Made by a program: the position numbers and the translations under genes. Under the pieces are notes generated by a model that saw only the letters and a list, made by a program, of their open reading frames with translations, had not been told where the DNA came from and did no database searches. Of a DNA stretch of 64,000 nucleotides, positions 18,098 through 55,597 are shown in pieces. Position 1 is the stretch's first letter. Every line of letters starts with the position of its first letter. Source of the DNA: Perkinsus olseni (Eukaryota; Perkinsozoa; Perkinsida; Perkinsidae); assembly GCA_013115135.1 (NCBI GenBank), contig JABANP010000087.1, positions 62,001 through 126,000 of the forward strand. The letters run 5' to 3'.

Positions 18098-21000
18098 ATG
18101 TCCAGCTCTGGCGGTGGCAGCGGCGGCGGTGGTGGTAGCGGGAACTGGTATAGAGGGCATAATAAGAATCAGCAAAACTATCCTACGGTACTAATGCTGA
18201 TGGGAATCGTGGAAAGTCTGGTCTCGTTATGTCGTTTCTCGCCCGTCTCGGTCGAGCTAGCCATCCTCGTGTTTTGCTGACCGGCAGCCAAGATTTAAGC
18301 GTAGCCACAGCAAGACTACAATAACTGCGGCACTTATGTACTGACTGTTTACGCTCATTTCTCGAAGGAGTGGTAGCTGCTGGGAACTCCCCTGTGAAAA
18401 TTATTTTCATTCAGTACGGCAAATATGGGGGTAATCGTCAACAGCAACAAGGAGTCGGTAAGAAGTCTCAACCCGTGGTGATGAACCAGAGAGTGCAGCA
18501 ACAGCAACAGCAGCAAAGTAATAAAGCCTTGATAATGTCAGCACGAGACTCTTAGCTGACGCTGAGGTTACTACTCGGGCCTTTTACTTTTATAGTCATT
18601 CTCGTGGGTGATGAAGATGGGTGTTGCTCGTCAGGAACATCTTCACCTAGCGGACCATCAGCCAGAGCAGCCCTCACACGATCACTCACTTCGAGCAGTT
18701 CAGCCACAACGAATGAACCTGTCGCTGACCGGATGTCGGAGTTGAAGAGGAAACTTGTGGAAAGTCGTGGAGGTAGTTGAAGACCTGTGGTTTTTAGTTC
18801 ACTCAGTGCCGCCGGTCATTATCCGGTCTCAGCTGATTTCAATAATACGGTTGCTGGTGTAGCTCCAACGTCGTGGCGTGGAAAAACTGCAGAATGAATC
18901 GGAGATGTGAAACGCATCGGCCATTGGGTAGATTTACCAGAAATGAGAATCGCGGATGCTGAAAGCGGCGGGGATCTCTGGCGAGCCTCCCCAATTGGAG
19001 AGAACGATCGGCGGGAAAAATACATGCTTCGAGCCTGACTTGAGGCCGGCTTGTCGTTTGGACGTTGTGTTGTTCGGCATGTCCGAGTCGGCCCCGAGCG
19101 GAGACTTTCAAAGCGCCGCTCTATCACCGGGGGGAAGATGTTCAACGGGAGAGTAGATGATTGAAATGGAGATTTCGGGGCGTGTCGAAAATAAGATTGT
19201 TTATCACCCTTGAAGCTCCCAATCATCAGGTTTAACTGCGGATTTATCGGCGATGCAACCCTCGGCCGAATCAGCAGCCAAAATCCCGAAAGTGGCGGCT
19301 AGGGGTGGCAGGGGTAGTATCACCACAGAGCAGTCTCAACAAGTTCATATACACCCACGGAGAGGAGGGGGTAGAGGGAGCTCGGCTACGCCAAAAGTAG
19401 AAGACATATTGGGGGTCGACGATTTACCCGGCTCCCATGTTCTGGTCGCCTTCGTTGTTTCGCGGTTTACGCGGTTATCAACCTGCGAATGAGAGTTATC
19501 AACTTTCTAGTGTATGCTGTTTTCGTCTCAGAAGTCATCAGCGTCCAGCCCATCTCATGGGGTCCCCAAGGCGGGAGTGAGAGCCCCTGCGAAGGTCGGT
19601 AAACAGATCAGAGTGCAACATCCCCCTCCTCCACCAGCGTCGATCGTTCGGACAGGCTCGGCAGCAGTAGCGCATGGAGTGCATCTGGTAGGCCATCTCG
19701 GTGAGTATGACTGATCGGGTTGGGGCAGTTCGAAGATTTGCGCGTATTGTGAGCACCACGGCTGTGGGGATGAGAAGATATTTACCGTGGGAAATGTTCC
19801 AACCGGGAATTGAACTTGGGACCTCGCCGTGGTCATTGCAGGCGAAGCATAAACCGCAAACAACGCCATCGCCACCCCCTCCCAAGGCGACTGCCCATCC
19901 AATGCGGCGTAGGAGGGGGACGTCACCAGCCGTCAGTGAGGGCAGTGGCAGCAGCGACGCCGCAGTGGCCCCACCGACGATGCCAGTCCCCCTACTGTCA
20001 ACAAGTGGTGGGAAGAATCTGCACCAGCATCATAAGGTGATCCTAACATTCTGGAGTGTCGACCGACTTTCTGATGAGGGTAGTCAGTCCAAGTCGTTTG
20101 GAGTGATATTCGTGGTCTTTGAGAGCTACCATACAAGTCCGGTAGCGGGAAGGTCTCCATTTGGTTGTGACCCCTTCGATCCATCATCTTGCCGCTATCG
20201 ATGATCGGACTGTGATGACTGATTCTCCTGTCCGTAGGCCGTTCAGCCCAAATCATCGGGGTTAGCTCATCAACATCATCAGCAGACGACGACGACGACA
20301 CCGAAGAGTAAACCTGATGATGGAAAGGTAGTGAGGGGGGTGAGGGTCGCGCTGTGATTTTCGTTTCAACCTCTAGGTTCGTGCTTCTGTAATTGGCTCG
20401 CCCGTTGATCTATCGTGCGCTACTCGAAATTGTTACTGCCCGCGGTAGGGTAGTGAGAATCTAAGCTCGATTCTGGCGCGTCTCAGAGCCAAAGATACTC
20501 AGTTGCTGAGCGTATCACAAGAGGCTCCTGTCGCTCATTTCAGTTACTGGAGCTCATACCTGCTCAAGTGGCATCGAGTCCGCCCACACTGCCGTCTTCA
20601 GCGAAAAGTGCCCCGCCGCCGGTAGCTGCTCATAAACCCACTTCCCCGGTATGGTTATCGCATAATTTTGTGGCGCGTGACGGAATTTGGGTGGCTTGTA
20701 GGAGGTGCCGAGTAGAGGCACGCACTCGGCGGTTAGCCGGCTACGTACAATAGAACATCTCAGAGCGAAGAGAGCGCAGCAGCAGATCTCGAAAGAGGTA
20801 GCAAGGCTGGATCGAACCAGATACCTTCGGATGGGGGTGCGCGAATTCTACCGTTATGCCATAATTTCTCGTAGCATCCAACACCGAAGGTGACCCCAAG
20901 CGTTGCAGCGCCCTCAACGCCTAAGCCTGCTGCAACGCCGTTGCCTCCACCTCCGGTAGCTGCTGAGAAGACAGTAAGTGGAGGCTTGGTCGCTGGTACC

Positions 21001-21667
21001 GCTCGATCGCCATACTGGAATGCCAGCAGGTGCCCAAGCCTGCTCCGAAGTCTGAGCCGACCCGGCCGGGCTTCGAAGGCGGCGAACAGTCGTTGACGGA
21101 GAGAATGTTAGAGGCGGTGTTGTCGCAGCTTATTGACACTCATAGTCAATGGTAGAAAATGTACAGCTTCGCTCCGCCCTCATTTTGCTGTATTTTTAGG
21201 CTGGTAGAACACTGCGGAGTGGAGAAGGAGTCCCTGCAGCCGAGACCGGTGGATGTTACCGCCATGGACCTCTGTCGGGTGGAACAGATGGTTCTAGACG
21301 AAACGGCCAATTTCGAAACCAAACTCAAGGCTTCCTCGCGGTGAGATCTCAGGGAGGGGAGCGTTCGGTTTTTTCGTACGCAAATTTACTCGAGGGAGAA
21401 AATGACGCAGTCGGTGTGATGGGAGTATAGGTAAAGATGACGGTGTGGACATAGGCTCTGAAGCAGGGAACATCTTGAGCTGTTGGGTTTTAGAGCAGTT
21501 CTCGCGCGCCACGAAATGTGTGTATTTTGATCAGGTATCTTGACGCAGTTCGACCAGTGTTGGATCAGCTACCGAAGCTGACTCCAGCGGAGGAGGAATC
21601 TTTCGGTTTGCATCAGAAAAGTAAACCTCCTGCTTCTGCTGGACCGCCGGCAGCGGCCAAAACTTGA
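18098..21667 (+). CDS. Pro/Ser/Gln-rich RGG-motif protein, about 14 exons, function unknown
   Basis: ATG 18098 opens a Gly/Ser stretch. Successive coding blocks, each bounded by GT and AG, include a Gln-rich block (about 18414-18555), a Ser/Thr block ending in a charged helix (about 18638-18766) and an RGG block (about 19240-19405). Pro-rich blocks follow at about 19540-19700, 19840-20037, 20239-20330 and 20569-20622. A C-terminal helical part ends at the TGA at 21667. The last three exons (about 21028-21150, 21200-21343, 21535-21667) read smoothly across introns. RGG and low-complexity content suggest an RNA-binding or condensate-forming protein, which is inference. Two introns (near 19798-19870 and 20796-20868) contain antisense tRNA-like sequence. 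Exact internal junctions are provisional. Confidence 0.55.
20796..20868 (-). repeat. tRNA-like sequence in an intron, antisense to the gene
   Basis: On the minus strand an A box (TGGCATAACGGTAG) is followed 43 nt later (start to start) by a B box (GGTTCGATCC) flanked by complementary CTGG and CCAG. The acceptor strands do not pair, so this is not a functional tRNA gene. It resembles the tRNA-derived head of a SINE. Confidence 0.6.
21501..21517 (+). repeat. Intronic GCGCGCC motif, copy 1
   Basis: TCGCGCGCCACGAAAT lies in the last intron of the 18.1-21.7 kb gene, about 15 nt before its 3' splice site. The same 16-17 nt recur at 28150-28166 and 32841-32857. Confidence 0.8.
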
Positions 21668-21843
21668 CGATATTACAGTTGTCTGATAATGATAGTTTCC
21701 TAATCGAGTGCTTGGGGACACGGTGATTGTGTTAAATTCAACCTGAGGGGACAGCCTCTTGTGTTGTTAGATGCTCCCACCTGCTAGTATTAAAGTGCTC
21801 TTAGTTTCTGTCGGTCAGGGGCCCCTTAACTATTTATTCTTGT

Positions 21844-23148
21844 ATGGTGGTTTTGGTTAGCTTGCTGCTGCCGCGTCTCTTCGGCTTCCTGTGGTTGGCG
21901 CTGTCACAGTGCCCAGAAAGATTCGACGAATTTCGTGAGACGGTGTTGACAAAGTTGAATTTTTCGTCCGTCGACGGGCAGCAGGATGTCGATTTTTATC
22001 GCTCCGCCCAGGAGGCTGGAGTTTTCGAGGGATCCCAGGTTGTCGACGAGTGCCCGGAAGCCCTGCTGGTTGCCTTGGCTGTCTTTATCGCTGACCAGTA
22101 TCCTGTTACTGAAGCCTTGGAATCTTTTGTTGCGCACGCGGAAGATTTCGAGGTTACCAATGACAATTATCTGCGGCTGCTGTCTTATTATTTGCTACCT
22201 GCTCTCATGAGGGCCCCTGAGAGGGTCCTGGAAGGTTGGTCGAAGTGGAACGTTGCTGAGGGCGTGCGAAGGCTTCGACAGATCGCCGTCACTCTGGACG
22301 ACTTTATTTTATCGGCGTACAGCATCCACGAGGTCACCGTTTACGACGAGATCTTGTCACGCGCCACTAAATTCGACCAGCAGGCTCGGCAGGTGGTGGA
22401 TCTGTCCCTGGCTGAGGAGTCCGTGTATTCTCAGAACGGTGAGGACGGCGTCATCAGAGCGGCAGCTGAGGCCCTGGCTGACCTGCCCCAGTTTGAGGGG
22501 AAGGAGCGGTACTTCGTCGAGATCGGCGTTGGCAACGGCATCCAGTGCAACACCCGGGCCTTGAGGCTTGCTGGCTGGCGTGGTGTTATGTTTGACAAGT
22601 TTCGCAGGAACCCCTATGTCAACCTCTACAGGGAGTTCATCAGCGCTGAGAATGTCAATGATGTGTTGAGAAGGTATTCGGTGAAGCAGGATATCGCTCT
22701 GCTCTCAATCGACATCGACGGCAACGACTTCTACGTCTGGTCTGCTCTTGGGTATCTAAGGTCGATTCTGGTCATGGTTGAGATCAACGGTTCACTCGGC
22801 GCAGATGACAAGGTCATCCCGTACGACTCTGAGTTCGTTTCCGATGGCACCACCTATTACGGAGCGTCATTGCCAGCTATGGTGGCCTTGGCCCGCCTCA
22901 AGGGCTACGTCCTTATCTGGGCTAACAAGATAAACGCCCTCTTCGTCAAGGAGGCCTATGAGCATCGCTTCGCTCATGCAGGTTGGTCTTTTTTTGTGAG
23001 TTTTGTCGCTCTAATTTTTCTATTTTCAGGTGATGTAAGTTTCTGGATCCGGTTTGACGATGGCCATTTAGTGGACCCGCACGATCGCCCGTTCATTTCT
23101 AGTGAGGAGGCTTTGAGAATGTGGCATGGTGAAATTGAACTTTCGTGA
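21844..23148 (+). CDS. FkbM-like SAM-dependent methyltransferase domain protein
   Basis: The frame gives 434 codons, or 418 if a 48-nt in-frame intron at 22982-23029 is removed. It starts with a hydrophobic segment (residues 1-18), a likely signal anchor. The C-terminal half holds the SAM-binding fold: SQNGEDGVI (about 196-204), VEIGVGNG (about 225-232) with NTR and GWRG after it, and DIDGND (290-295). This is the arrangement of FkbM-type and related methyltransferases, which methylate sugars or small molecules. The N-terminal 190 residues are not recognised. The trehalose synthase ATG follows 82 nt after the stop on the same strand. The substrate is unknown; a Golgi or ER location is inferred from the N-terminus. 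Confidence 0.75.
   Translation: MVVLVSLLLPRLFGFLWLALSQCPERFDEFRETVLTKLNFSSVDGQQDVDFYRSAQEAGVFEGSQVVDECPEALLVALAVFIADQYPVTEALESFVAHAEDFEVTNDNYLRLLSYYLLPALMRAPERVLEGWSKWNVAEGVRRLRQIAVTLDDFILSAYSIHEVTVYDEILSRATKFDQQARQVVDLSLAEESVYSQNGEDGVIRAAAEALADLPQFEGKERYFVEIGVGNGIQCNTRALRLAGWRGVMFDKFRRNPYVNLYREFISAENVNDVLRRYSVKQDIALLSIDIDGNDFYVWSALGYLRSILVMVEINGSLGADDKVIPYDSEFVSDGTTYYGASLPAMVALARLKGYVLIWANKINALFVKEAYEHRFAHAGWSFFVSFVALIFLFSGDVSFWIRFDDGHLVDPHDRPFISSEEALRMWHGEIELS
22982..23029 (+). other. Probable 48-nt in-frame intron without a stop
   Basis: Begins GTTGGT and ends TATTTTCAG, with a CTAAT branch-like motif 12 nt before the T-rich 3' end. It is a multiple of three and has no stop. If retained it adds 16 mostly hydrophobic residues. 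Removing it joins HAG to DVSFW and restores a polar C-terminus. Confidence 0.6.
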
Positions 23149-23230
23149 TCTATCGGAGTGGTGTTTTTGGGTCTGGCTTGATGCTCAGCATTTTACGTTT
23201 TTTCCATCAGTTTTAGTTTTTTCAATCGCC

Positions 23231-26200
23231 ATGATAGCGCCTCAAGAATCCGCTAAACAACAACCGACTAAAATTGTCCCTTCGGAAGGCAAATCTGCCG
23301 TTGAACACGAAGTTGCCGCCGCTGAGGTCGTCGATGAGGGTGTCGAGTAAGCTGTGCTCTCTTGCAATCTTGCATTTTCTCAATTTTCTTCTTGAGCAGG
23401 ACGCAGAATTGTAGTCAGAAGGATGATGAGCAGGTCCAGCCGCAGTTGGACCAACGACAAAGGCTCATTTCAGTGGCCAATCGATTACCTTGTAAGCAGA
23501 AATGGCACATGTGGGAATCGAACCATAGACCTCAGGGTTGTGATGCTTGACTGGCGACCTGTTGAGCTATGGATGACTTTCTTTTCGATAGGTACCATTC
23601 ATAAGGATAAGGCCACGGGGAAGTGGGTCGCTAGCAAAAGCTCAGGAGGCCTGGTGTCGGCACTGAGTGGTGTGAGCGGCATCGACATGCTTTGGATAGG
23701 GTGGCCAGGATGCGAGGTCCCTGATGAAGATAAAGCAGAAGTCTCGGAGTTGGTATGAATCACGTCCTGCTGCTGTTGTTGATTTTCCCGTTTGTTATCA
23801 GGTGAAGGCACAGGGATGCTATCCAGTGTTTCTCACTGATGCCGAGATCGAGCTGTACTACAATGGTTTCTGCAACAACACGCTTTGGCCGTTATTTCAC
23901 TACATCACCCCTTCAACGGAACGTAAGTCCAACATTCCTATTTACATTCGACGATTCTCGGTGTCCTTCTTGTGATACCATAAAATCACCAATTCCTGGT
24001 GACCATGCGTTATCACGCTCCGCGTAGTGAGAGTCATTCATATTTGTATTTGAGTATTCATATTTGGTAGTGAAAACTACGCGGATCACTTTTGTATCAT
24101 GGGTCGTTTGCTAGGTGTGATTCAGCGCAAAACGTTAGAATGGGAGACTTATCAAAAAGCCAATGCCAAGTTTGTAGATGCCATCATGAAGGTAACGCTC
24201 TGCGCATGAGGATACTATATCGACTTCGATGTCGTCGTTTTCCAGGTTCTGCACGACAACGATCTGGTGTGGGTTCATGATTATCATCTTATGCTGGTAG
24301 CATACCTCACCCCAGCCGGCCGCTGTGGACTGTGTTGTTGTTGTAGGTGCCCAAGCTGCTACGAGAACGAGTTCCTAACGCCAAAATTGGCTGGTTCCTT
24401 CATACACCCTTCCCCTCCGCTGAGATCTACAGGATGCTACCGTAACAATCATAATCTCCGCCGATAGTGGATTATTGTGATCTTTACTCAGGCAACGGGA
24501 AGAACTCCTACAAGGTCTATTGTCGGCCAACTTATTGGCTTTCCATGTAAGATAACAACAGGCATTTCTCTCCGGGAATCTTAGGTCGAAGCGTAGCACT
24601 CATGGATTGTGTTGCGTGTCCCCGCGCTGCCTTTCGGGCTCGTGGTGATGCCATTGGTCCGCATCAGGTACATGACTATGTTCGACATTTCCTGTCCAGC
24701 TGTGTGCAACTAACCACCTTAGAGATCACTCCGCAAGGAGTTGACGCTACACCCCTCAATGGCAATTTTGTAGGTCCCCGGTTCGAATCCCAGTGGAGGC
24801 ACTTTTTCTCCTCTCTCCGTAGGTGAAATGCACTACTATACCTATTGGCATCGACCCTACCTCATTCACCTCAGTAGCTGAGTCTCAGTCCGTGGCAGCA
24901 CGAGTGGCTAGTTTGAAGGAGCAGTGGGGCGACAGAAAAGTCATCCTTGGTAATTTGCCGTGCTCATACGCCGGGTTGTGGGAATTAAGGATTTTCATCT
25001 TTTATAAACGATAGACCATCGGTTTGCGATTTTCCGTCACGCATCAAAATGAGAGTGCGATGGCTTGAGAGTATGCTCGGGAATCGTCGAAAGTTCTCGT
25101 CATTTTTCTCTGCCGTTGGCACCCTCTTCCAAATTTGTCGTTTGCGCGTTCTGCTCCTGCCTTGCGGTAGGCGGGCCCATCGTGGTTCATGGTGGTTGTG
25201 TCGCTCATCAGGTATCGATCGTCTTGACTACATCAAGGGTATTCCGCACAAGCTGAAGGCGTTCGATATGTTCCTGGATGACCATCCTGAGTGGGCATCC
25301 CAGTGCGTCTTGGTAAGAGGATACCACCTTCAATTACAGAGGGTATCACCATTTCTTTCCTCAAGGTCCAACTGGCTATTCCCACTAGAAGTGAAGTGCC
25401 TGAGTATCAGCGACTGAAGCGACAGGTGAGGGGTGGATGTCGAATCACGGGTGTCAGAATGAGTGGAGTGTATCAGGTTCACGAGATGGTTGGGTCGATC
25501 TGCGGAAAGCATAGCAACCTTTATACTGGTCCACCTGTGATCTATCTGGATGGATGTGTCGACCATCAAGAGCTGGTATGTGGCGTTTTGTCCTGGCAGT
25601 TATGCTTATGATCTCACTCGCGAACGTCCCTAGTTCGATCCTTGCTGACGGTGTTTTTCAGACTGCCCTCTATAGAGTAGCTGATGTTGCACTCATCTCG
25701 TCCATCCGTGATGGTATGAATCTGGTAGCCTACGAATACGTGGCCTCTCAGCAACACAAGTAAGCCCGAGCGTTCGTCTGTAGGAGTTGGTGGAAGTGTG
25801 GTATGTAAACGAATGTACTGTCTCTTCAGGAACGGTGTTCTGGTCATCAGTGAGTTTGCCGGAGCATCGCAGTACCTCGGGGCCGGAAGCGTAAGTCAGC
25901 TTTACTGTGGTCTGCGTGACCGTTTTACACTGTGTAAAAATCTCCGTCTTAGATACGAATTAACCCATGGAACCTTGAGGAGGTGTCTTGGGCGATCTAC
26001 GAGGCTCTGACTATGGGTGAGGACCGCCGGAAGGAGATGCACGAGTATTGCTTCAACTACAGTAAGCATGCCTTCCTGTGATATCGCGTTGCTGATATTC
26101 ATTGATCAGTTAGTAACCACAGTGCCCAGCGCTGGGCTGAGACGTTCATCGAAACTCTCAAGGATGCTTGCGCTCAGCGGGAGGAGGTCTCCGCTTCGGT

Positions 26201-29200
26201 AAGCTTGTTGGTGGTGTTCCATTTCGTCTGCAATACCATCTTTATCGCAGGTGTCCCCTTTGGTGCCCTTTGATAACGTGTGCCGTTCTATCGAGTCTAG
26301 CAACAAGCGTCTGCTGGTAGGTTGCGGTGGGTAGTTAGGCTCTCTTTTTTTGGATGCACGCAATACCACACCAATCGTAAATCACCGACGATCTGGTCAG
26401 GTATTGGATCTCATGGACTGCCTCGTCCCGTCTAAGACAAGAAGAGGAGTGCCGGCCAAGCTGTACCAGTCTCTTAGGTCGGTACCGAAGGACCTCATGG
26501 CTAGTCTAGGCCGTCTGGCCAGTGATAAAAGTGAGAGGCGGCTTAGGTTCGATCCTCGCACCTGTCAGTTCTCAACCATTTATCAGATACTATAATGGTT
26601 GTGACGACCAGTCACTCTAAGCAAATCTTAGAACGCCTCCTCGGTCATCTTCCGATCTACTTGTTACCCGAGAACGGCTGCATTTATCGAACGTAGGCCG
26701 CCGCCGCCGTCGCCTTGCCTCGTCTATGGTCTACTATTATCACTTCCGGCCGTTAGCACTGCGAGGCGCATCGACTTCGTGTTCTCTGCTGTTACGGAAT
26801 ATCCGTATCATTTATAGATTCTTTCACCATGTATGAAATTTTATTAGTATTAACAGAAAATTGTATGTATCGAAGTGGAAAGAAAGCTCATAATTAAATA
26901 TCAGGAAATAGCAGGAAAAAATTTATGCTGAATTTCATTCAATTTAGCCAATTAATTCTACTCAGTTGAATATCAAGGAGTCATTTATGGTTAGTTTAGT
27001 TCGATTAGCTGAATCTTCTGATCAAATTTTAGAAACTGTTTTTTATTTGATTTAATCAATCAATTTTATTTGATTGGATATTACAGAATTATTAATGGTT
27101 AGTTTAATTCGATTAACTGATTTTTATTACTTATTGAAAGTGATTACTAATTAACTAATCTTATTCGCTTGAATGCAGTTTACAATACTGTTATAGATTA
27201 TAATACACTTTATTAAATATGAAAATGCTCGTGAAAGGAGTACCACATTTTCTCCAAGTAATGGTGGTGACCACTCGTTTCCTGCATTTTCAGTCCCGAA
27301 GGCGAGTGGAAGTACGCTGATGCCCTCGGATGCAGCTGCGCGACAGCAGAAGACAATTCGCTTGCTGAGGTAGGGAGCGCGTGCTAGTGATACCACTCCT
27401 TCCGCGAATCATAGTGTACCTTTGGTTCTTCAGGTTGAGGAAGGCACAGAGTCCACTGCAGGCATCAGCTCTCCTCGTTCGCGTGCTGCTTCTTCTAGTG
27501 CCGACAGTGAGTTCTCGAGGTCCCTGGTTCGATCCCATGCTAGAGCATTTTTTCAGCTTCGGACCATGGCTGGATGAACGGCGTCGAGGAAGTGCTACGG
27601 TATTTCCAAGAGAGGACACCCGGGAGCTACATTGACCGGACAGAGTAAGAAGCATCAGGAGGCCTTTTAAGTTGCCACGGTCTTGTCCCTCTCTTCAGAT
27701 TCAGTCTAAAATGGTTCTTCGATAACACGCAAACTGACTTCGGTGCTCCTCAAACTCGAGATCTCATGATACAGCTCTGGGCTGGCCCGCTGGCCAACGC
27801 TGAAGCAGAGATTGTCGTTGGCAACAGGTAGGGGTCCGCAGCGCTGTGGAGACGGTTCGAATTTTTGGGGTATCTTTCAGGTATATCGAGATTCGACCTA
27901 AAGATTCTTCGATAGCGTCCAATCTAGAGAAGATACTCCATCATGAGATTCTCGATGCTGACACAACGTCTGATTCCAAGGTGCCACGATTTAGCTAATT
28001 TTCATTCGTTCGAAAGACTTGGCGCTCGCCCTCAGGTTGACACTTGCGTCGTTATCGGCGCGTACCCCTTCCGTGATCAAGATGTCTATCAAGCAGTGGA
28101 AGACACGCTTGTTCAGCAATGGATACCTAAATACACTCGGTAAGTTTTTTCGCGCGCCACGAAATTAGCGACCGTTGGAAGGACGGTGTCAGACACCACG
28201 GCTGCCCACCCAGTGTCTCGTCGTCGTCCATGCGACACTCGAGCGCTGATTGCATCATGGATGTGATGGGTTGTGATGCTTTGCGATTGAAAGGGAATCC
28301 TCAACAGCTTTCCCAGCTAAAGTGGGTTACTGTTAAGATGCCGTCTGCGGGAATAGAACCTGGGTCCTTCGTGTGTCAAACGTGTGTTCTATCGTTCAGA
28401 CCTATCCAAGATGGTGGCAAAGACTCTCTTGAATACGAAGGTGAGTCGACTGTCCTGCCCTCTACCGATCCTTATCATCGTCTATTCAGGCGAGACGGCT
28501 GTGAGCGGCCACGACGTTTTGTACGAAGAAATGGTCAAGTCGCATACTCTAACGTAAGTGTTGGTCATCACCTCGCTATCATTATCTCTGTGCTGCTTTC
28601 CTCAGGCACCCTACTCGACAGACGTCTTCTGCTGACAACCAGCTGGACTTGGAGCCGCCTACAGCTGTAAGGCTGTTGAGACCTTTTCGTTGTTTTCGCC
28701 CTCGCTCGGCTGCCTGTGTTGAATGATTTGAGCGTTGTTAGGCTGCAAGCGCATCGACTGCATCAACGTCGTTCCTGGACGAGTCATCGCCAACTGAGTC
28801 GACTAAAGAGGATCTGCAGCGCTTACACGACTCCTATTATTCAGTGGCCGTGGGGCAGTGTAAAGTCTCCAAGGCGAAGTAAGTACATCATTCTAGGAAG
28901 GAACAGCTCATTATTAGCCACACCGCGGGGCCCTCTATTTCTGCTGTGCATCGTCATGGGAATTCACCTTTCTTGCTGTTCGCTTTTCTTCGGGTTTTGG
29001 AGTTCCATTCTCGCGATCATAAATATTATTGTTGTTGGTGTCCTCCCACTCCCCCATGTCAGATATTCTATCCCAAACACTTACTATGTGGCCAATCTTG
29101 TCCATGATATTGCGACGCACCTCCCGCAGTCGCCAACGGGTAGCAGCGCGGCCAGCACCAGCAGTACTGGTGTCAGCAACAAGAGCGTCGTCGCCGAGCC

Positions 29201-29249
29201 TGCCCAAGCTGAGCATGCTGCTGCTGCTTCTGTAGCCGTCACCCCTTAA
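23231..29249 (+). CDS. TPS: Trehalose-6-phosphate synthase fused to a degenerate trehalose phosphatase domain (31 exons, 997 aa)
   Basis: Exons 23231-23346, 23400-23491, 23592-23752, 23802-23922, 24115-24191, 24246-24296, 24347-24441, 24492-24546, 24668-24769, 24823-24949, 25212-25312, 25366-25425, 25477-25575, 25662-25759, 25830-25890, 25953-26061, 26110-26198, 26251-26316, 26401-26530, 26569-26692, 27294-27369, 27434-27506, 27557-27644, 27699-27827, 27881-27980, 28036-28139, 28400-28440, 28490-28553, 28606-28666, 28742-28878 and 29063-29249 total 2994 nt, and every phase closes. The GT20 part makes trehalose-6-phosphate from UDP-glucose and glucose-6-phosphate in the cytosol. It keeps [45 protein letters not shown] and [11 protein letters not shown], so it looks active. 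The HAD phosphatase part has LDLMDCL where LDYDGTL is expected, TSH for SGR and GAYPFRD for GDDxTD. The AENG-like and ERTPGS-like elements survive. It is probably non-catalytic. Two AG-bounded T tracts just before the ATG could be trans-splice acceptors. Confidence 0.93.
23502..23576 (-). repeat. tRNA-like sequence in synthase intron 2, antisense
   Basis: On the minus strand, inside the intron at 23492-23591, TAGCTCAACAGGTC (A box) precedes GGTTCGATTCCC (B box) by about 44 nt start to start, the spacing of a tRNA. Acceptor and T stems do not pair properly, so this is a tRNA-derived remnant. Confidence 0.65.
24770..24822 (+). repeat. 53-nt intron built around a sense T-arm/B box and T-run
   Basis: Synthase intron 9. 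After the donor GTAG comes GTCCCCGGTTCGAATCCCAG, then GGAGGCAC, then TTTTT, then a pyrimidine tract ending GTAG. The order B box, acceptor-like GC-rich end and T-run matches the 3' half of a tRNA gene with its Pol III terminator. Confidence 0.65.
25576..25661 (+). repeat. 86-nt intron ending in a sense T-arm/B box and T-run
   Basis: Synthase intron 13. The last 37 nt read GTCCCTAGTTCGATCC, a short GC-rich segment, then GTTTTTCAG. The layout is the same as in introns 9 and 22. The T-run forms the polypyrimidine tract. Confidence 0.65.
26531..26568 (+). repeat. 38-nt intron containing a sense B box
   Basis: Synthase intron 19, GTGAG to GTCAG, contains AGGTTCGATCCTCGCACC. Reading through it destroys the family match. 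Removing it joins SDK to [12 protein letters not shown] in phase. It is the shortest intron in the gene. Confidence 0.6.
26820..27230. other. AT-rich island inside synthase intron 20
   Basis: The 601-nt intron 26693-27293 carries about 400 bp far richer in A and T than anything nearby. It includes repeated blocks such as ATGGTTAGTTTA(G/A)TTCGATTA at about 26986 and 27095. It looks like an inserted sequence with internal repetition; no coding frame or terminal repeats were found. Confidence 0.6.
27344..27403 (+). repeat. Repeat spanning the exon 21/intron 21 junction (second copy at 38855-38920)
   Basis: CAGCAGAAGACAATTCGCTTG and the following GTGCTAG...GATACCACTCCTTCC recur at 38855-38920 with a few indels. 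In the synthase the first 26 nt are the end of exon 21, and the rest starts with its GTAGG donor. Confidence 0.8.
27507..27556 (+). repeat. 50-nt intron built around a sense T-arm/B box and T-run
   Basis: Synthase intron 22. It reads GTGAGTTCTCGAG, GTCCCTGGTTCGATCCCATG, CTAGAGCA, TTTTTTCAG. A T-stem of four pairs with a 7-nt TTCGATC loop can be drawn. The similarity to introns 9 and 13 covers the whole 3' half. Confidence 0.65.
28150..28166 (+). repeat. Intronic GCGCGCC motif, copy 2
   Basis: TCGCGCGCCACGAAATT, immediately after the donor of synthase intron 26 (GTAAGTTTTT). Confidence 0.8.
28340..28411 (-). repeat. tRNA-like sequence overlapping a 3' splice site, antisense
   Basis: On the minus strand, TAGGTCTGAACGATAG (A box) and GGTTCTATTCCC (B box) are 44 nt apart. 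The AG acceptor of synthase intron 26 (28398-28399) lies within the complement of the A box, so exon 27 begins inside the tRNA-like unit. Confidence 0.6.
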
Positions 29250-54859: not shown

Positions 54860-55597
54860 TCATGGCATGATGCCGTGCAAGCGTGGTTGCGCCGGGTTTT
54901 GCGTTGCCCCCGGAGTGGGGTTCCAACCTTCCACGGGTTTTTCAATAAACCTGAATTAGAAATCAAAATCAATTCCAGAATCGACTCCGGGTTTCAGACT
55001 CCATTGAACCGGGGGGTCGGAACATATCGATACCGACTTTTCTTCACTGATACCTCTCACGGCACCCGGGTTCTAACCCTCGTACCGACATTTTGTACGT
55101 AATTTATCCGATCGATCTTTGCGGCGATCGCAAACGTGGATGAAACGCTATGCTCAGCAATCGATCATTCGGGCGAGCCCTTTTGACGTTCCGTGCGCGG
55201 CACCAACGATTTCAATGCAAAAGTCCATACTATCAATGCAGAGCTGAGTGAAGACAAGTTACCCAAGGGATTAGGTTTTCCCCTAAGATGAATTTCTTTA
55301 GTCATAGTTACACAGACAGCTCAATTGTTTTGCTTCTATGATGATAACTATCAAACGACATTCACTTAGAATGAGCGCAAATGCGCGTTGATATAAAACC
55401 CCATAGCACTGGGCGCTGAGAACTCATAATGCACGCGGTTTATGATGAATAAAAACTATTTTCATCACTTTGACCTGATCATACGTGATGACACCAAGAG
55501 CATTGCTGAATGACCAGCGTTAATGAATATTGAACTCTACGCGACAGTCTAACGTGCAGAATATGTCATGGGCATGCGAGGATCTCGGAAAGCAGCA
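54860..55597. other. Intergenic, no gene seen
   Basis: Scattered short frames only. An AT-rich part lies at 55320-55510. Confidence 0.4.

Follow-up and report, generated by a model that had tools for sequence, protein, structure and literature searches.

The window analysed here, a stretch of 64,000 nucleotides of Perkinsus olseni DNA, carries a gene for trehalose-6-phosphate synthase/phosphatase (TPS), several predicted introns of which contain a short element resembling the 3' part of a tRNA. The original prediction, made from the letters of the window, had proposed that the introns of a "synthase" gene contain, or are built from, tRNA-derived sequence, and the match to PDB identifies this gene as TPS (Table). 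The TPS protein, its spliced translation being scripted as far as position 26530, is 82-100% identical to Perkinsus proteins, with 100% identity to one P. olseni protein over 76% of the query and 82-84% identity to genome-derived proteins of P. marinus and P. chesapeaki.

The scripted gene model with the introns 23492-23591, 24770-24822 and 25576-25661 gives a continuous protein that is aligned over the junctions. Homology aligns across the junction of 23492-23591, and P0001, a transcript-derived relative (mmetsp source), keeps the residues NRLPCTIHKDK unchanged there; at 24770-24822 the PDB alignment has a gap of 3 residues shortly before the junction and the Perkinsus alignment is ungapped. 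The introns 26531-26586 and 27507-27556 are backed by the alignment of Perkinsus relatives, themselves gene models, as read by eye. The proposed boundaries were in agreement with homology for the first three introns and with the Perkinsus alignment for 27507-27556, and only the proposed end at 26568 must be moved to 26586, as judged by comparison of the next exon with P0124.

Sense B boxes of the form (A/G)GTTCGA(A/T)CC had been described in four of these introns and are present at 24780, 25632, 26546 and 27526, the ten-base form being exact in three and one base longer at 24780 (the 11-mer GGTTCGAATCC). The run of T described as standing just before the 3' splice site is found there in 25576-25661 and 27507-27556, and lies 15 nt before the splice site in 24770-24822. 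The antisense A and B boxes described at tRNA spacing in 23492-23591 were recovered, with the B box at 23514 (the 11-mer GGTTCGATTCC) and the A box (TAGCTCAACAGG) 45 nt before it, as counted by hand. In 25576-25661, the 47 nt preceding the core could, as read by eye, be the remnant of a tRNA 5' part that has decayed. A further antisense pair had been assigned to an intron at 28140-28399, where a clear antisense copy was detected and the gene finder splits the claimed intron. The predicted long A+T-rich TPS intron at 26693-27293 includes a repeated stretch (atggttagtttagttcgattagctga / atggttagtttaattcgattaactga), noted by eye.

With a 36-column profile trained outside the window, nine copies of the element were detected in the window, as compared with 0-1 in each of 10 Markov-shuffled windows, and six of the nine sit in the TPS gene. 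Around the copy at 20792-20827, a 77-nt GT..AG stretch (GTAGCAAGG...TCTCGTAG) identified by eye would be a candidate intron of tRNA length, and the copy at 19790-19825 is possibly located in an intron, judging by eye from its context. Eight of the nine profile matches lie within 9 kb (19790-28369).

Table. Host gene, element-containing introns and further copies of the element in the window (core, 36-nt element core; score from the 36-column profile)
Feature	Position	Strand of element or gene	Core	Score (bits)	Basis or remark
TPS gene, intron host	23231-29249	+			PDB match 1.3e-143; 3' end from the gene finder alone
100-nt intron, antisense, nearly full-length tRNA-like element	23492-23591	-	23498-23533	28.0	A box upstream of core
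53-nt intron, sense element	24770-24822	+	24771-24806		homology, Perkinsus alignment, profile
86-nt intron, sense element	25576-25661	+	25623-25658		homology, Perkinsus alignment, profile
56-nt intron, sense element	26531-26586	+	26537-26572		Perkinsus alignment, profile
50-nt intron, sense element, T-run then CAG	27507-27556	+	27517-27552	38.0	gene finder, Perkinsus alignment
Antisense copy in candidate intron 28140-28399	28334-28369	-		30.6	stretch split by the gene finder
Antisense copy	20792-20827	-		22.9	no gene there according to the gene finder
Antisense copy between GTGAGTATG and TTGCAG	19790-19825	-		25.4	no gene there according to the gene finder
Sense copy	55060-55095	+		19.4	outside predicted genes

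The same element is abundant throughout the genome. In the 61.5 Mb searched (968 contigs), the B-box pattern RGTTCGAWCC gave 1670 and 1714 matches on the two strands (3,384), as compared with 306 and 317 (623) for a control in which the pattern was read backwards, palindromic matches being counted twice in motif and control alike. The proposed excess of B boxes is thus borne out. The expectation that such a box should turn up by chance far less than once in 64 kb was incorrect, the control amounting to about 0.65 per 64 kb. The 18-mer AGGTCSBVGGTTCGATCC, which spans the variable loop and T loop, showed 392 exact matches against none for its reversed form, 1219 against 1 with up to one mismatch, and 2688 against 46 with up to two. 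The A-box motif TAGCTCAGYDGG showed only 168 matches against 34 for the control genome-wide, indicating that the 3' half has expanded far more than this 5' motif. Matches to the A-box motif or to tRNA are evenly spaced on some contigs, at about 1 kb and about 0.23 kb in turn (C172:58499-73256), at about 166-183 nt (C778), and at about 183-186 nt and multiples thereof (C823), a regularity that suggests tandem tRNA gene arrays.

A sample of 84 distinct sites was taken from the first 100 B-box matches listed, with five on contig C7 and one on C8 left out. The flanks alone were scored with a profile from 15 other sites, themselves picked by the 18-mer, and 48 of the 84 sites scored above the 99% point of 3,000 random positions (hereafter tRNA-like); the flanks of the other 36 were not tRNA-like. 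Outside the search motif, which covers tRNA positions 52-61, conservation was observed at A44-C48, C62, C72 and A73, followed by Ts, all at tRNA spacing. The identity by position was 0.510 at 72-77, 0.291 at -17 to -9 and 0.256 further upstream; beyond the T-run it was only 0.262 (+30 to +44), with no conserved sequence. As in a short interspersed element (SINE), the copies are dispersed, share a common 3' end and have lost the 5' part. An A box was found in 3 of 47 tRNA-like sites (control, 1 of 30), so that the combined A and B promoter of a SINE is lacking from nearly all of these sites, in which the B box is present by selection.

The position of the copies relative to introns was determined with a purpose-written gene finder, trained on the DNA of the sampled loci. 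In a first pass, 31 of the 84 sites were assigned to introns, of which 17 were sense, 10 antisense and 4 palindromic; 17 fell in exons and the remaining 36 outside any gene. Of 27 control-motif sites, 1 fell in an intron. An earlier local intron score, which at threshold 30 selected 0 of 84 B-box sites and 7 of 328 random positions, was replaced by a masked gene finder, in which the element core was barred from exons and a short intron was defined as 110 nt or less. Short predicted introns were obtained at 21 of the 48 tRNA-like sites (12 sense, 9 antisense), with 5 more in long or cut introns. When the cost was limited to 5 log units, the count was again 21 of 48, as compared with 6 of 140 random positions (Fisher p 7e-10), 1 of 30 control-motif sites (p 6e-5) and, among the 36 B boxes whose flanks are not tRNA-like, 2 (p 7e-5). 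Sites with tRNA-like flanks are thus much commoner in short predicted introns than the controls, in line with the original prediction. The 15 profile sites, on stretches of only about 260 nt, gave 3 short introns, 6 long or cut and 6 none; at two of them (L136 and L141), a short intron read by eye was missed by the gene finder. In the acceptor profile of the predicted introns, the first two exon bases are G and T, at 55% each, and this AG|GT context is as expected if the introns entered AGGT sites.

The element accounts for most of the length of these introns. In a set of 29 element introns, hand-picked and mostly chosen as short, the median was 53 nt, and after subtraction of the 36-nt core a median of 17 nt was left, with 25 nt or less in 22 of the 29. 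Among background introns, 5 of 177 measured 25 nt or less (background median 66 nt in that set, 55 nt in another). Since so little lies beyond the core and such short introns are rare, an older recipient intron would have been shorter than nearly all introns here, unless it was trimmed later. Of the 20 sense copies, 19 have no more than 22 nt between the 5' splice site and the core, and all have no more than 25 nt between the T-run end of the core and the 3' splice site; of the nine antisense copies, all have the T-run end no more than 11 nt from the 5' splice site, and eight have the other end no more than 23 nt from the 3' site. Similarity near both splice sites is therefore seen in the 29 hand-picked introns, weakly beyond the core. 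The T-run, proposed to double as polypyrimidine tract, is often near the 3' splice site in sense copies, but that role cannot be general, as 9 of the 21 short introns are antisense. The idea that all introns of this genome are decayed copies was ruled out, since only 7 of 147 background introns reached 16 bits (four in TPS, one elsewhere, and two that are real tRNA genes lying within predicted introns), followed by one at 10.2.

Several introns outside TPS are supported by homology at the junction. Twenty-three spliced translations were made and ten compared with Pfam, giving seven matches, one doubtful case and two without a match. Removal of a 48-nt antisense intron from adenylosuccinate synthetase (PurA) gave an ungapped alignment over the junction, and the alignment was likewise ungapped at a 49-nt sense intron inside the P-loop of a kinesin and at a 54-nt sense intron of a PP5-like phosphatase; a TPP enzyme with a 51-nt antisense intron matched Pfam across the junction at 1.5e-8. 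Weaker cases, all under their cut-offs, were a J domain (1.2e-4), the alignment of which has a gap of 3 residues close to the junction, a Ufd2 core (0.0012), and a propeller of WD40-like type (0.0061). By homology, these predicted introns combine GT..AG ends with a conserved protein restored on removal, as spliceosomal introns do, and similar sequence is shared by many predicted introns of one genome, several of them backed by homology.

Taken together, we consider with moderate confidence that these copies represent a tRNA-derived introner-like family, in which pieces of the tRNA 3' half, in either orientation, became introns by insertion into exons. The 36-nt core corresponds to the variable loop, T loop, discriminator and terminator of RNA polymerase III (Pol III), and single copies in either orientation account for most of the length of such short predicted introns. 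Reverse transcription of tRNA-like Pol III transcripts is the probable source of the pieces, judging from conservation that ends with the T-run and weakens 5' of the variable loop; reverse-transcriptase domains are plentiful in the genome (150 scored of 421 candidates), indicating that copying machinery exists. In the sense orientation, the T-run, positioned near YAG, would serve as polypyrimidine tract; in the antisense orientation, a GT located at the 3' end of the tRNA and an AG past the variable loop would be used as splice sites. If only insertions giving workable splice sites survive, a uniform length of about 50 nt would follow.

A number of observations weigh against this reading. Target-site duplications, the mark of introners of the DNA-transposon type, were not detected as an excess of direct repeats at intron ends, the longest shared string averaging 4.82 in 28 element introns and 4.76 in 102 others. 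Comparison with paralogs (two-piece matches with exons 89-100% identical, together with a further set that was more divergent or gapped; insertion sizes by arithmetic) showed 11 positions that keep a net insertion of 47-72 nt, one indeterminate and none empty, indicating that the element introns predate those duplications. Both results argue against fresh activity of the element, and of the proposed spread of tRNA or SINE fragments as ready-made introns, it is the genome-wide repeat filling short introns that stands. Second copies of several of the 28 queried loci lie on C5/C451/C467, C7/C340, C8/C134, C19/C365 and C5/C226/C275, and the exon pieces that were measured separately are 89-100% identical, a pattern that a heterozygous or duplicated genome would give. 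As to placement, the gene finder was checked on TPS alone, 22 of the 48 tRNA-like sites fall in no gene, and when the cost limit is lifted a short intron can be forced at 31 of the 140 random positions, 5 of the 30 control sites and 4 of the 36 B boxes without tRNA-like flanks. The set of 29 introns favours short ones by its choice, and the element introns are predictions from genomic sequence and homology.

The fold of the element also disagrees with a simple origin from tRNA. Variable pairs of the T-stem were matched in 97 of 189 cases, as compared with 99.1 after shuffling, and a full T-stem in either register was found in 12 of 62 copies against 13.3, the register shifted by one being no better. 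The Rfam tRNA model gave no match in 20 loci or in the TPS gene at E up to 5; Rfam on the introns gave four weak matches to other families only, one being 13 bases of tmRNA. The copies are therefore tRNA-like at typical sequence positions and not in fold. A pool of intact real tRNAs as the source was rejected, T-stem pairing not exceeding shuffles in either register, and descent from intact tRNAs is not supported. Positions 66-71 are near random (identity 0.281), although they lie between better conserved blocks (0.473 and 0.510) that stand a fixed distance apart; decay of one SINE family, also rejected as a source, would have kept them as well as 72-77. The flanks on the two sides of the B box are uncorrelated (43-51 with 62-77, r = 0.003), against a simple tRNA or SINE origin, with a slight correlation of 49-51 with 62-65 (r = 0.093, p = 0.045); on one side, correlations were 0.101 (62-65 with 66-71) and 0.078 (-25..-10 with 43-51). 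Ten pairs of copies look alike in the 5' flank, against a null mean of 1.4 and a maximum of 5, and nine in the 3' flank, against a null mean of 2.0 and a maximum of 8; no pair belongs to both groups, and GTAATCGAAAGGTC and CGGCATGTTGCATTTTT are examples of 5' and 3' modules. These T-stem and flank results hold for copies chosen by an intact B box, and unselected copies could differ.

Pieces of a tRNA-derived SINE could instead have entered ordinary introns that already existed, the surplus being trimmed later. Insertions are tolerated in introns, the plentiful reverse-transcriptase domains would also serve this route, and not all element introns are short: those of TPS include lengths of 86, 100 and perhaps 260 nt, and 5 of 26 in the sample are long or run off the locus. 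We regard this as rather unlikely, since the remainder without the core is far shorter than background introns and trimming would have had to restore the usual length repeatedly in both orientations. Even less probable, in our estimate, is that the introns are chimeric tRNA cDNAs formed by template switching at the T loop and inserted in either direction into exons. The modification m1A58 blocks reverse transcription; a reverse transcriptase starting at the tRNA 3' end would stall at this base, in the B box, jump to another tRNA and stop in the anticodon loop. Such chimeras would account for a 3' end shared by all copies, a missing 5' half, the unpaired T-stems and the freely assorting flanks, but some dozens of tRNAs should, by our own estimate, give more look-alike 3' flanks than were seen.

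We give slightly less credit still to a functional DNA site under selection, such as a B box bound by TFIIIC and serving as chromatin boundary, which would be kept in introns and between genes and which introns would merely tolerate. The core is kept while positions 49-51 and 66-71 vary, both orientations occur, the flanks are largely unlinked, and B boxes are clustered (18 adjacent pairs closer than 1.5 kb against 7.15 expected, for 89 listed sites on contigs C1-C7); selection on such a site leaves unexplained why the element fills most of a 50-nt intron and why an AGGTC block and CA plus T-run stand at tRNA distance. Chance B boxes combined with biased intron prediction could be invoked from the 623 control matches and the 36 sampled sites lacking tRNA-like flanks, but deserve almost no weight: the control counts (392 against 0 for the 18-mer) rule out a chance origin, and several introns are backed by homology independent of the gene finder.

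The origin of new introns is a long-standing question. If insertion of tRNA pieces into exons is the correct reading, introns can be seeded, perhaps in their hundreds, by a cellular RNA that all organisms possess, and flanks that assort freely across the B box suggest a copying mechanism that can be tested. A literature search of titles and abstracts of open-licence papers gave nothing on tRNA-derived spliceosomal introns or Perkinsus introners. SINEs derived from tRNA have a tRNA-like body, a B box and a Pol III terminator and may have lost the 5' part; the Perkinsus element shares all of these, and differs in that it is unconserved past the T-run, rarely has an A box, and forms introns. Extra-TFIIIC sites consist of a B box without an A box in both orientations. 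The Perkinsus element does likewise, but adds AGGTC and the terminator at tRNA distances and fills short introns.

We class the family as introner-like and not as proven introners: sequence is shared among many introns and near both splice sites, while the target-site duplication is missing. Introner families have median lengths of 30-654 nt, some being without target-site duplications and terminal inverted repeats, and most are interpreted in the survey as products of DNA transposition (Gozashti et al. 2022, PMC9860276); its main text contains none of the words tRNA, SINE and Perkinsus. As with the introners described there, many introns of one genome share sequence near both splice sites, but the Perkinsus family is tRNA-like, occurs in both orientations, has largely unlinked flanks and carries no sign of recent gain. 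The introner elements of Amoebophrya are described as bearing direct as well as inverted repeats and as differing in their splicing motifs (Farhat et al. 2021, PMC7789003). In contrast to these, the Perkinsus introns are GT..AG introns with no excess of direct repeats; in common with them, introns would behave as invasive elements in an early-branching relative of dinoflagellates.

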